Origin: a gamma proteobacterium NOR5-3
GTDB lineage: Bacteria; Pseudomonadota; Gammaproteobacteria; Pseudomonadales; Halieaceae
NCBI GenBank assembly: GCA_000158155.1
Contig: DS999405.1
Location: forward strand, 58,883-122,882
Direction of reading: 5' to 3'
Length of the DNA: 64,000 nt
Shown here: positions 29,361 to 34,123 of the stretch, one piece after another
How the letters are laid out: each line of letters starts with the position of its first letter
How positions within the stretch are numbered: position 1 is the stretch's first letter
Position numbers and translations under genes: made by a program
The notes under the pieces: generated by a model
Database searches by the model: none
Seen by the model: the letters and a program-made list of their open reading frames with translations, nothing else
What the model was told of the DNA's origin: nothing

Positions 29361-30233
29361 ATGATCACAGGCAGCATTGTCGCCCTCGTTACACCCATGC
29401 ACCCGGATGGTCAGATTGACTATTCGGCGCTCGATGGTTTGCTCGACTGGCACGTGGCCGCGGGCACCTCAGCGATCGTCGCGGTGGGTACAACCGGCGA
29501 AAGTGCGACACTTGATGTCCATGAACATCTTGATCTTATCAGGCATTGCGTAAAATACCTCGCCGGTCGCTTGCCGGTAATTGCAGGCACTGGCGCCAAC
29601 TCTACGCGAGAGGCCATCGAACTCACGCGCGGGGCTGCATCGGTAGGCGTTGACGCCTGCCTACTCGTGACGCCTTATTATAATCGTCCCTCCCAGCGCG
29701 GGCTCTATGAGCACTTCAAAGCGGTGGCCGAAGCGGTGAGGGTCCCGCAAATCCTTTACAACGTGCCTTCACGTACCGCCGTCGATATGAGCAATGAAAC
29801 GACGCAGCGACTCTGCGCCGTCGAAAATATTGTGGGCATCAAGGATGCGACCGGGGATTTGGGTCGGGGCAAGCAACTTCTTAGCATGGTCCCCGAAGAC
29901 TTTGCGGTCTATTCCGGCGATGATGCGACCGCAGCCAACCTGATACTTGCCGGGGCAAAGGGAAACATTTCTGTCACAGCCAACGTGGTACCTGAGCGTG
30001 TAGCGGCACTGTGCGCCGCAGCCCTGGCAGGTGATGAGGCAACGGTGCGGGAACTTGATGAGAGCCTTAAGGGTCTCAACGCCGCGATGTTTGTAGAAGC
30101 CAATCCCATGCCGGTGAAGTATGCGCTTTCGAAGCTGGGTCGTATGCAGCAGGGCATTCGACTGCCGCTGACCTTCCCCGAAGGGGATGCTGCGGCCTTG
30201 ATTGACGCGGCACTGGAGAGCATGGGCGTATGA
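29361..30233 (+). CDS. dapA: 4-hydroxy-tetrahydrodipicolinate synthase
   Basis: First committed step of lysine/diaminopimelate synthesis: condensation of pyruvate and aspartate semialdehyde. 290 residues with the class I aldolase pattern: VGTTGESATL at about 42-51, the catalytic Tyr in PYYNRPSQRG and a second in LYNVPSRTAVD, and the Schiff-base Lys in GIKDATGDLGR near 161. The stop overlaps the bamC start (ATGA), the classic dapA-bamC pairing. Confidence 0.97.
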   Translation: MITGSIVALVTPMHPDGQIDYSALDGLLDWHVAAGTSAIVAVGTTGESATLDVHEHLDLIRHCVKYLAGRLPVIAGTGANSTREAIELTRGAASVGVDACLLVTPYYNRPSQRGLYEHFKAVAEAVRVPQILYNVPSRTAVDMSNETTQRLCAVENIVGIKDATGDLGRGKQLLSMVPEDFAVYSGDDATAANLILAGAKGNISVTANVVPERVAALCAAALAGDEATVRELDESLKGLNAAMFVEANPMPVKYALSKLGRMQQGIRLPLTFPEGDAAALIDAALESMGV

Positions 30234-31267
30234 AGGCTCTGAAGCTTGGTGCCCTGTTACTCGTTCTGGCGCCGCTTGGCGCATGCGGCTATCTTTTTGG
30301 CGACAATGGCGTATTTCGCGACTCTGCGGGAGATTATCGCGAAGCGCGGGAAATGCCGCCCATCAGTCTCCCCCCGGGCACGCAAACCGACGAGTTTGTG
30401 GATATATATCCCATCCCCAAGGTGGAGAGTGACCCGCAGTTTGGCGATCCCAACAAGGTTCCCCGGCCGGCGCCGTTAGTGTCTGCCAGTGCGGATCAGT
30501 TGGTGCGAATTCAAAAGCTGGGCGAAGACACCTGGGCATTGGTTGCCATCGCGCCGGGTCAGCTTTGGCCACAACTGCGGAGCTTTCTGTCTGCCGCCAA
30601 CATTGATATCGCCCGCATGGATGCTCGCGCCGGAATCATTGAGTCCACCTATCTGGTGCTCGAAGAAGACCCCAGGCCTACGCGCTTCCGTTTTCGGGTG
30701 GAGCGCGGCGTGCAGCGCGGCAACAGTGAGTTGCATGTCCTGCAGATGTTTCAGACCAGCGACGGCGATGTCTGGCCCGAACAGTCAGACGACTTATTTA
30801 TCGAATCGGAGCTGTTGCGCGGCGTTGCGCAGTATGTCGCCAACAGTGCTGACACGGCACCGGTCTCTATGATGGCTGAGCAGTCCATCAGTGCCGGTGG
30901 GAAAGTCTCCCTGGGTGATGATGACCTGGGGAGCTTTATTGCCCTGGAGCTGCCTTTTGATCGCGCCTGGGCGTCTATAGCGCGCTCCCTGGAACTGTCA
31001 GGTTTCGATATTATGGATCGCAATCGTAGTGAAGGCCGCTACTATTTGCGTTACGTTGGCGATGACGACGAAGAAGGTTCGGGCTGGTTTGCCTGGTTGG
31101 GTGATGACGACAAGCATCCTGCCGATGGAGTGCCCCTGATTCTGGATGTGGAAGCCCAGGCTCCCCAGCGCATGATCATTCGTATGTCTTTTGAAGAAGG
31201 TGGGGCCTCGCTTACTCGAGAACAGATCGAAGCGCTGTTGGTATTGGTCAAGGGCAATATCAGCTAG
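30230..31267 (+). CDS. bamC: Outer membrane protein assembly factor BamC
   Basis: Lipoprotein of the BAM complex that inserts beta-barrel proteins into the outer membrane. Signal peptide with lipobox ending at Cys19 (PLGAC), an unstructured N-terminal segment (DYREAREMPPISLPPG, the conserved BamD-contacting part), and two helix-grip domains (from about 90 and about 225). 345 residues. Translationally coupled to dapA and sharing its TAG with the next gene's start. Confidence 0.93.
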   Translation: MKALKLGALLLVLAPLGACGYLFGDNGVFRDSAGDYREAREMPPISLPPGTQTDEFVDIYPIPKVESDPQFGDPNKVPRPAPLVSASADQLVRIQKLGEDTWALVAIAPGQLWPQLRSFLSAANIDIARMDARAGIIESTYLVLEEDPRPTRFRFRVERGVQRGNSELHVLQMFQTSDGDVWPEQSDDLFIESELLRGVAQYVANSADTAPVSMMAEQSISAGGKVSLGDDDLGSFIALELPFDRAWASIARSLELSGFDIMDRNRSEGRYYLRYVGDDDEEGSGWFAWLGDDDKHPADGVPLILDVEAQAPQRMIIRMSFEEGGASLTREQIEALLVLVKGNIS

Positions 31268-32064
31268 TGAGAATGGCTTCTCTGGGCAGCGGTAGCCGAG
31301 GCAACGCGACCCTGATTCAAACACAGCAAAGCTGTGTCATGGTCGATTGCGGTTTTACCCTCAAAGAGATTCAGCGCCGCGCCGCACAGCGTCAGGTGGA
31401 TCTGGGTAGTCTCGACGCTATTTTGGTGACCCACGAACACAGTGATCACAGCAGCGGTGTCGCCGCTCTCGCCCGGTGCTATCACATCCCTGTGTATCTC
31501 ACTCACGGAACCTTTGCCAGCGGCCGCATTGGTCGCTGTCCTCAAATCCAGGTATTCAACGGCGATACCCAATTGCATATTGGCGCGTTTACCGTGCGGG
31601 CGGTAACCGTACCGCATGATGCGCGAGAACCCGTTCAGTATTGCTTCGAGTCCGCCGGGCATCGCGCCGGGGTTCTCACCGATTTAGGTTCAGTGACCTC
31701 GCATGTTCGGGATGCCTTTGACCATTGCGATCTTTTGCTTTTGGAGTTCAATCATGACCGCCAGCTTCTGGCTGAGGGCCCATATCCTGCATCCCTGAAG
31801 CGTCGCGTCGGCGGTGACTGGGGACACTTGTCCAATGCCCAGGCGGCGAAGTTGCTCGGACAGCTGAATTTACAGCGGTTGGAGCACCTTGTGATTGCGC
31901 ACATCAGCGAGAAGAACAATAGTCGGGACGCTGTGGAGGAGCAGTTGCGACAAACCGACCCGGAACTGCTGGCGAAAACGATTTGGGCTTCCCAGGCCCA
32001 TGGCTTTGACTGGATCGAGGCGTCTCGCAAAAGCGTTTTGCAGGCATCGTGTGAACGGGTTTAG
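31267..32064 (+). CDS. MBL-fold metallo-hydrolase (YycJ/WalJ-like)
   Basis: Metallo-beta-lactamase-fold hydrolase, 265 residues. SLGSGSRGNATLI at the N-terminus, the metal site THEHSDHSSGV at about 56-66, LTDLGSVTSHV near 142, LLEFNHD near 159 and a C-terminal HISEKNN. These match phosphodiesterase/nuclease-like MBL proteins found after bamC in Pseudomonas-type genomes. The GTG at 31267 shares one base with the bamC stop; ATG at 31273 is an alternative. Substrate unknown; possibly a nuclease or cyclic phosphate hydrolase. Confidence 0.87.
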   Translation: MRMASLGSGSRGNATLIQTQQSCVMVDCGFTLKEIQRRAAQRQVDLGSLDAILVTHEHSDHSSGVAALARCYHIPVYLTHGTFASGRIGRCPQIQVFNGDTQLHIGAFTVRAVTVPHDAREPVQYCFESAGHRAGVLTDLGSVTSHVRDAFDHCDLLLLEFNHDRQLLAEGPYPASLKRRVGGDWGHLSNAQAAKLLGQLNLQRLEHLVIAHISEKNNSRDAVEEQLRQTDPELLAKTIWASQAHGFDWIEASRKSVLQASCERV

Positions 32065-32132: not shown

Positions 32133-33302
32133 GTGTCTAAAGACCCCATCAGTATCGTGCAGCGGGGAAACCTGCAAAACCTTGAGAAGACTCTGCGTAA
32201 GCAGTGGCGTCTTGGTCAAAGTATTGTGTTGTGCTGGTGCTGGGATGAGCGTGGCCTGCTGGTTATTTTTGTCCCGCATTATTTTCTGGGTAACTACTGC
32301 GCTCACCGCGATGATCCTGAGGTTGCCAATGAAAACGAAAACTATATACGGGCATTGATCTCAGGACGGCGCCGCAAGAGCCGCGATGAACTTTTTGCCG
32401 TCGCCGTCCGGCTGGGAGTATCTCCAACGTTTATCAAGTTGGAAAATCCCCTGGATGAATCGATCTCGGTGATGAGTGGTGTGGAAGAGATTATTCGTCG
32501 CTATGGACTGAGCTTTGTGGAGCGGCGCGGCGTATTGCTGTTTGATATTGCGGATTTTTCCCTGTTCAGCTCCTTTGAGCAGGCGAGCCAGCTCAATAGT
32601 CTGTCCTACTCTATGAACTCTGTGTACAACAAGCTCGCCGCGCGGGGTATGGAGATCAATTTTGCGCGCACCACCACCGGTGACGGATATTATGTCTGGA
32701 ATCGTGACAATCACCCCCAGTCAGATCAGGAGCTGTTTCTTTTTCTACAGCTTGTGCTGGCCGACAACGCTCTGGCGCGGGCAGCCTCCCGGGGAAACAC
32801 GGTACCTGTGGTACGTGCGGCCTTCCATATTGGCAGCCACTACGAGCTGTATCAGGCTGAGGGTGTTAACCCAACGGTGTTTAGTTACATCGTCGGAGAT
32901 GTGACCATTGAGCTGGCCCGTATTCTGGATAAAACCCTGCCGGGGCAGGTGATGCTGGGTGACTTTGGTGCCTGTGCGGGACAGGAGCACGGGAGTGCGG
33001 AATTCGTTCAGGGCTGTGCAGAGGCCGCCAAGGCCCTGGAAGGTCTGACGCTCATGGGCAAGCCACTGCGCGCCTTGCGTAGCTGGCTGTCGCGGGATGC
33101 CTCGGCGGACGGCGCAGGGCAGCCTCTGGATGTGACCATTACCGACAAGCACGGCCTCAAGCATCACGCTTTCAATTTGCAGGGAGAGCTGGAGTTTGAA
33201 GACACCAGTATCACGCTGGGAATGACCCCGGAAGAGTTCCATGAGGCACGGGAAAAGTATCAGCCGCGAGGGAATGGAAAATCCGATTCCTGGTGGGTGT
33301 AG
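32133..33302 (+). CDS. Class III nucleotide cyclase-like protein, uncharacterised
   Basis: No characterised gene recognised. About 130 residues of unfamiliar N-terminal sequence are followed by a region resembling a class III adenylyl/guanylyl cyclase domain. Visible there are LLFDIADFS (136-143, first metal Asp), TTTGDGYYVW (second metal Asp in GDG, about 184) and AAFHIGSHYELY (about 229-240, as the family's HxG strand). VGDVTIELARIL (about 254-265) matches the Asn/Arg catalytic helix by eye, with Arg kept but Asn replaced by Ile. No membrane segment. GTG at 32133 is preferred over GTG 32127 because ACGAGG fits it as ribosome binding site. Overlaps rsmJ by 10 bp. Confidence 0.65.
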   Translation: MSKDPISIVQRGNLQNLEKTLRKQWRLGQSIVLCWCWDERGLLVIFVPHYFLGNYCAHRDDPEVANENENYIRALISGRRRKSRDELFAVAVRLGVSPTFIKLENPLDESISVMSGVEEIIRRYGLSFVERRGVLLFDIADFSLFSSFEQASQLNSLSYSMNSVYNKLAARGMEINFARTTTGDGYYVWNRDNHPQSDQELFLFLQLVLADNALARAASRGNTVPVVRAAFHIGSHYELYQAEGVNPTVFSYIVGDVTIELARILDKTLPGQVMLGDFGACAGQEHGSAEFVQGCAEAAKALEGLTLMGKPLRALRSWLSRDASADGAGQPLDVTITDKHGLKHHAFNLQGELEFEDTSITLGMTPEEFHEAREKYQPRGNGKSDSWWV

Positions 33303-34123
33303 TCGCGCCGTCTTTGCAAGACAGGCAGCGCGCGACGGAGATTGCCGGGCAGTTCGACATTCCCCTTTTGGACGCGTCCTGCCGCCCCCGGGACCTGGAA
33401 GCAGGGCGCGGGGTATTGCAGCTGATCGACGGTGTCCCTTCGATTGCGCTCACCGGACGTGACGTTCCGGGCGCCGTTACCATTGATTTTGCAGATAAAT
33501 CTATGGCCCGCCGTCGCCGCGGCGGGCACAACGAACTGCTGGGAAAGGCGGTAGGCTGGAAACAGGCGCACGCTCCGGGGGTTCTGGATGCCACCGGTGG
33601 CTATGGTCGTGATGCGTTTCTACTTGCGGACCTGGGCTGTCAGGTAACGGTGTGCGAGCGCGACCCTGTGATGGCGCTGTTGTTTGGGGATGCCTTGATG
33701 CGAGCCTCGGCCTCCGGCGATGAATGGCTTGCGTCAGTGGTGGCCAGAATGCGTCTGCTTGATCGTGATGCGGTAGATCTGGAGGCGTCTGTATTGACTG
33801 CAGTAGACGTAATTTATCTTGATCCCATGTTTCCCCTTGACCGACGTGCAGCGCCCGCCAAGGAAATGCAGGTTCTGCATCAGCTTCTGGCCTTTGAAGC
33901 GGCAAATAGACACCCTGAGGCTGAAGCACAGCAGGCAAAATCGGCGTCAGAAGAACAGGCCCGCAATGCTCAGGATGCAGCGCTTCTGGCCTGGGCCAGA
34001 GCTCAGGATGTGCGTCGTGTGGTGGTAAAGCGGCCTCGTCGTGCACCAGCGATTCCCGGCCCCGCTGTGGGCCATTGCCTCACAGGAAAATCTGTACGCT
34101 TTGATGTTTATCCCGTTTCCTAG
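33293..34123 (+). CDS. rsmJ: 16S rRNA (guanine1516-N2)-methyltransferase RsmJ
   Basis: SAM-dependent methyltransferase modifying G1516 of 16S rRNA. 276 residues with the RsmJ-type core: VLDATGGYGRDAFLLADLG (SAM loop, about 99-117), VTVCERDPVMALL, YLDPMFPLDRRAA (catalytic motif, about 177-189), and VVVKRPRRAPAIPG. The region before the C-terminus carries an Ala/Gln/Glu-rich insert (EAEAQQAKSASEEQARNA) not seen in E. coli. The GTG start lies within the end of the cyclase-like gene. Confidence 0.9.
   Translation: MGVVAPSLQDRQRATEIAGQFDIPLLDASCRPRDLEAGRGVLQLIDGVPSIALTGRDVPGAVTIDFADKSMARRRRGGHNELLGKAVGWKQAHAPGVLDATGGYGRDAFLLADLGCQVTVCERDPVMALLFGDALMRASASGDEWLASVVARMRLLDRDAVDLEASVLTAVDVIYLDPMFPLDRRAAPAKEMQVLHQLLAFEAANRHPEAEAQQAKSASEEQARNAQDAALLAWARAQDVRRVVVKRPRRAPAIPGPAVGHCLTGKSVRFDVYPVS

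Follow-up and report, generated by a model that had tools for sequence, protein, structure and literature searches.

A conserved class III cyclase-like protein upstream of rsmJ in Halieaceae and its phosphodiesterase-like neighbour

Introduction

The gene directly upstream of rsmJ in the gamma proteobacterium NOR5-3 raises the question of whether its product, a protein with class III nucleotidyl cyclase motifs and an altered catalytic residue, makes a cyclic nucleotide. A first-pass annotation of the window (the whole 64,000-nucleotide stretch of DNA that was analysed) had called the protein undescribed and coupled to rsmJ, and had proposed either an active cyclase or a degenerate sensor. We followed the gene through its relatives, its predicted structure and its neighbourhood. 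The protein probably makes a cyclic nucleotide, since it has a predicted cyclase fold and since the next gene in many relatives resembles a signal-destroying enzyme.

Results

The cyclase-like gene is intact and strongly constrained

The cyclase-like gene forms an intact open reading frame on the + strand, running from GTG 32133 (or GTG 32127) to the stop at 33302. It follows dapA, bamC and an MBL-fold gene and precedes rsmJ (Table 1). The rsmJ product also matches NF008012 (E 1.2e-37), yet it stays under the equivalog cut-off of that model. It had been remarked from the sequence alone that purC stands at this bamC-MBL site elsewhere. Indeed, we found the order dapA-bamC-mbl-purC at two loci (L188 and L189), where purC was named from its sequence. 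The sole SAICAR synthetase (PurC) match of the NOR5-3 genome (G000:C6:446445-447176, in a 379-aa open frame) is outside the window; it sits away from the bamC-MBL site, where some related families have purC.

Searching a collection of 84,980 genomes, we obtained 206 matched stretches encoding a relative of the cyclase-like protein. Homologues were single-copy in 23 of 38 relatives, namely in 22 of the 25 that belong to the gene's own family and in a single one from a different family. The own family is Halieaceae, with UBA6060, Chromatocurvus, Haliea and Parahaliea among the close relatives. Distant homologues, at about 30-42% identity, are scattered thinly over the rest of the class and phylum. 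Phage and plasmid records gave zero matches to cyclase-like homologues, and the gene behaves as a core chromosomal gene. Comparing the window gene with that of G002, a genome of the same genus, we obtained a dN of 0.055 and a dS of 1.43; this dN was the lowest among the neighbouring genes compared. The gene is real, intact and strongly constrained.

The surroundings of some distant homologues may be recorded here. The most divergent ones lie tail-to-tail with apparent pentapeptide-repeat genes, at L127 (G048:C9, 1219-3676) and L131 (G667:C72, 5083-8905). At L125 (G398:C49, 5042-7227), ~23 bp separate the cyclase-like gene from a canonical class III cyclase gene in tail-to-tail orientation.

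Table 1. Features of the cyclase-like locus, in window coordinates. Fractions refer to two sets of the cyclase-like protein, 77 close homologues and 18 diverse homologues.
Feature	Position	Strand	Basis
bamC, upstream syntenic neighbour	30230..31267	+	own sequence, dapA-bamC-mbl order, conserved synteny
MBL-fold hydrolase, upstream syntenic neighbour	31267..32064	+	PF12706 E 1.8e-20, synteny
Cyclase-like gene, 389 aa	32133..33302	+	start GTG 32133; GTG 32127 possible alternative
N-terminal region, ~residues 1-121, alpha-beta-beta-alpha	32133..32495	+	confident model; fold matches mainly cover residues 122-356
Predicted class III nucleotidyl cyclase homology domain, residues 122-356	32496..33200	+	VIA and Foldseek on model
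Putative metal Asp 1 (D138)	32544..32546	+	invariant 77/77 and 18/18; aligns to canonical first metal Asp
Thr180, position of purine-specifying Lys	32670..32672	+	hhalign (weak alignment); T 77/77; T/S/L in 18 diverse members
Putative metal Asp 2 (D184), in TTTGDGYYVW	32682..32684	+	invariant 77/77 and 18/18
Tyr252, position of purine-specifying Asp	32886..32888	+	hhalign (weak alignment); Y 77/77; Y/F/D in 18 diverse members
Ile259, position of transition-state Asn	32907..32909	+	I 77/77; I or V 18/18
Putative transition-state Arg (R263)	32919..32921	+	invariant 77/77 and 18/18
rsmJ, 16S rRNA m2G1516 methyltransferase	33293..34123	+	PF04445 E 3.4e-53

The predicted structure is a class III cyclase fold

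The cyclase-like protein had no match in Pfam, NCBIfam or PADLOC, and searching the PDB by sequence, with the single protein as well as with the family profile, gave nothing significant. PF00211, the class III cyclase family, matched neither the window protein (E 10) nor 18 family members (E 1). We also did not find a description of the family, or of the cyclase/phosphodiesterase pair reported below, in an open-access library. To this extent, the family deserves the label undescribed that it was first given.

In comparison, the structure prediction was clear. The AlphaFold (AF2) model built from 77 sequences has a pLDDT of 89.9 and a pTM of 0.88. Its top Foldseek matches were class III cyclases (E 1.4e-7 to 3et6_A), and VIA-align gave, over residues 122-356, a best Z of 15.4 against 8hbh_B (rmsd 3.2 over 186 residues). 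Thus, model, Foldseek and VIA all give the predicted protein a class III fold, in line with the cyclase/GGDEF-like palm anticipated from the sequence. From the model, we infer that D138 and D184 are close together.

Aligning the family with 21 genuine PF00211 cyclases by hhalign, we got one colinear match, over residues 133-280, which is weak (probability only 13-16%, E 0.002). This match sets D138, G183-D184, I259 and R263 on both metal Asp residues, the Asn and the Arg of the canonical cyclases. Such marginal sequence similarity, with no PF00211 match, is a point against reading the protein as an active cyclase. In the N-terminal region, HTH_3 matched weakly over residues 69-100 (E 0.042, below cut-off; 4 of 18 members). 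This candidate helix-turn-helix falls where the model has helix 84-94 and then a strand, and we took it as chance.

The active site keeps the metal-binding residues and replaces the Asn

The motifs first noticed by eye, LLFDIADFS (D138), TTTGDGYYVW (D184) and GDVTIELAR (I259, R263), are all present. Across both sets of homologues (77 + 18 sequences), the family retains the two metal-binding Asp residues and the transition-state Arg of class III cyclases and is devoid of the transition-state Asn. The reported change of Asn to Ile is therefore correct, and it is a feature of the family and not a local mutation, because Ile stands there in all 77 close homologues and Ile or Val in all 18 diverse ones. 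The positions of the base-recognition pair, which usually carry Lys and Asp, hold Thr180 and Tyr252, an assignment that depends on the weak hhalign alignment. Judged from the sequences, this conservation looks like that of a working enzyme with an unusual pocket and not of a decaying one.

Losing a transition-state residue could nevertheless abolish activity, and the missing Asn counts against an active cyclase. However, established cyclases without an Asn equivalent have been reported, such as the active Rv1900c, and DUF2652 proteins, probable class III cyclases, keep the Arg and have Ile for Asn in their mycobacterial members (Ramakrishnan et al. 2016, PMC4886424). Since the Asn is missing in both, it is not strictly defining for a class III cyclase. 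The Asn-to-Ile change is itself not new; in this respect the word undescribed went too far, the substitution having been published for DUF2652.

A phosphodiesterase-like gene follows the cyclase-like gene in many relatives

At 34 of 80 loci from named genomes (one copy being cut by a contig end), an extra gene stands directly after the cyclase-like gene and before rsmJ. It encodes an HD protein whose model has a pLDDT of 91.4. All 43 best Foldseek matches of this model were class I PDEs (best E 1e-3, prob 1.00), and the best VIA match (Z 18.2) was to PDE10A. PDEase_I (PF00233) matched 30 of 32 members (best E 3e-6), and the reference member scored 18.9 against a cut-off of 24.8. The residues H71, H75, H115, D116 and D196, which represent the HxxxH, the HD and the final Asp of class I PDEs, are invariant in the 32 members. 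No PDB sequence aligned to the profile of the HD family when the purine-recognising Gln of class I PDEs was looked for in it. By its model, the HD protein looks like a class I cyclic-nucleotide phosphodiesterase.

We then checked how the two genes occur together. Among 294 genomes of the order, 18 have both genes, 10 have the cyclase-like gene only and 12 have a strong HD match only (Fisher p 3e-14, a value that ignores relatedness). In 16 of the 18 genomes with both, the genes are directly adjacent; in G819 and G869, ~3 kb separates the two genes, which share a strand. The HD gene is a more telling partner of the cyclase-like gene than rsmJ. The genomes with one gene only, together with the relatedness left out of the Fisher p, speak against a cyclase/phosphodiesterase module. 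So do the distant homologues in other families (L119-L131), where no phosphodiesterase gene adjoins the cyclase-like gene, and the NOR5-3 genome and its genus, from which the HD gene is absent. Because the genus lacks the gene, a reading of the window by itself could not reveal this neighbour. In the HD-only loci read, no class III cyclase stands beside the HD gene; therefore, signals from other sources may also be among the substrates of the phosphodiesterase.

Some single loci add observations on the HD gene. At L132 (G035:C8, 3958-7933), it stands beside a lipoprotein gene resembling the upstream one of Halieaceae, without the cyclase-like gene. It is followed there by what reads as a gene for a cyclic-nucleotide-binding protein, which may be chance; a coupled cNMP-binding receptor was sought as a candidate and not found in Halieaceae. 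In G918 (C5:418079-418947), the HD phosphodiesterase-like gene is apparently split into two reading frames.

The rsmJ link is probably inherited synteny

Surveying the conservation of the gene pair, as the first-pass annotation had suggested, we found the order cyclase-like gene then rsmJ across Halieaceae, with or without the HD gene, while the 10-bp overlap was seen in the window's genus only. There, rsmJ starts at GTG 33293 within the end of the cyclase-like gene, as had been noted, and G002 and G003 of the same genus have the same arrangement. The proposed coupling holds inasmuch as rsmJ is the downstream syntenic neighbour across the family; it is loosened by the phosphodiesterase-like gene that often stands between. 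In other families (L119-L131), the homologues have neighbours other than rsmJ. Moreover, rsmJ diverges much faster, at 47-65% identity against 83-91% for the cyclase-like protein. We read the link as inherited synteny.

Discussion

We consider an active class III cyclase, acting in a cyclase/phosphodiesterase module, the best explanation of these results, and a reasonably probable one. Starting from the predicted fold, the invariant residues, the gene pairing and the constraint, catalysis, dimerisation, product and removal of the product may be pictured as follows. The protein would be a soluble and highly divergent member of the class III nucleotidyl cyclases that, by analogy with the other enzymes of this class, should act as a homodimer. 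D138 and D184 would bind two divalent metals and R263 would stabilise the transition state. Ile stands for the usual Asn, as in DUF2652 proteins, and Thr180 and Tyr252 would form the base pocket in place of Lys and Asp. These replacements make the product unpredictable, and it may be something other than cAMP. The class I (PDE-type) HD phosphodiesterase that the next gene encodes in many relatives would degrade this product. The partner is missing in the window's genus, where the cyclase-like gene passes directly into rsmJ.

Should the cyclase be active, an entire conserved family would dispense with the transition-state Asn and with the customary pair for base recognition, and the abundant marine Halieaceae would have an unassigned second messenger. 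The phosphodiesterase neighbour offers a direct route to the product, through the cyclic nucleotide that it hydrolyses.

Of the two possibilities originally offered, the active cyclase is thus the one now favoured and the degenerate sensor becomes its main rival, which we regard as rather unlikely. Such a protein would keep the fold and bind NTP and metals in the old active site but turn nothing over, serving as a nucleotide sensor or scaffold. The replacement of the transition-state Asn and of both purine-specifying residues would suit it, as would the strong constraint in a genus that has no phosphodiesterase. However, a sensor would have no need to retain both metal Asp residues and the Arg throughout the close and the diverse homologues, active cyclases such as Rv1900c dispense with the Asn, and the association with a phosphodiesterase gene fits a producer better.

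A bolder form of the active-cyclase reading strikes us as unlikely as a whole. It would make the family a new, sparse but widespread class III branch with a rebuilt active site, a product other than cAMP or cGMP and a dedicated bacterial class I phosphodiesterase, together a core signalling module of marine Gammaproteobacteria.

Still more doubtful is an enzyme of this fold that catalyses another reaction, with, for instance, a modified nucleotide or cyclic dinucleotide as product, or that is a cyclase strictly for pyrimidines. The pocket residues fit neither the adenine type (Lys/Asp) nor the guanine type, and the pockets of uridylate and cytidylate cyclases, which accept pyrimidines, are built from quite different residues (PMC11224242); both agree with this idea. 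Against it, at the loci read we recognised neither a Pycsar-type effector nor a cNMP-binding protein coupled to the gene, the GGDEF motif is absent, and the lack of PADLOC, phage and plasmid matches goes with core chromosomal behaviour.

It is very improbable that the protein is functionally tied to rsmJ and ribosome maturation with an incidental cyclase fold: the overlap in the window's genus and the gene order conserved across Halieaceae would agree, but rsmJ is not beside the homologues of other families, diverges faster and is often separated by another gene.

Comparison with known systems

The canonical cyclases (PF00211) share with our protein the predicted fold over residues 122-356, both metal Asp residues, the Arg and the order of motifs. 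It differs from them by the missing PF00211 match, the Ile for Asn, the Thr/Tyr for Lys/Asp and an N-terminal region of its own; the segment GSHYELYQAEGVNPTVFSY between the fourth and fifth strands is also unlike canonical cyclases. The NOR5-3 genome has one canonical PF00211 cyclase, outside the window (G000:C6:269712-271687), ~1.2 kb from an opposite-strand CRP-like cNMP_binding gene, and most relatives have this pair. The cNMP_binding genes of the relatives lie away from the cyclase-like loci.

The Pycsar pyrimidine cyclases demonstrate that the class III fold accepts other bases through different pocket residues (PMC11224242), and PycC resembles our protein in fold and in its altered base-recognition residues. 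In contrast to Pycsar, the cyclase-like gene has no recognised defence effector as neighbour at the loci read and no phage, plasmid or PADLOC match, and shows core chromosomal synteny. No PycTM/PycTIR-type effector was recognised at the loci read, where not all neighbours were scanned with effector profiles. Since PADLOC gave no match, phages and plasmids no homologue and the loci read no recognised effector, we rejected Pycsar or another defence system as an assignment.

DUF2652 (PF10851) is similar in its predicted class III fold, in the metal Asp residues and Arg and in the change of Asn to Ile. The CxxAC that is invariant among the aligned DUF2652 members is missing from our family. Whereas hhalign connects DUF2652 to the canonical cyclases with 94% probability, the cyclase-like family and DUF2652 (5 members) aligned at E 0.3 over 17 columns, and PF10851 matched neither the window protein nor 18 family members. 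We therefore rejected membership in DUF2652, the shared Asn-to-Ile change notwithstanding.

XC_0250 of Xanthomonas campestris (PMC3770947) is likewise a class III cyclase from a proteobacterium, and a signalling gene is linked to it; it differs in having been shown to make cGMP. Finally, the HD protein differs from class I PDEs (PF00233) in being a stand-alone bacterial protein with ~12% identity to PDE10A and Pfam scores near the cut-off, and resembles them in its predicted fold, in its metal and catalytic residues and in the PDEase_I match of most members.
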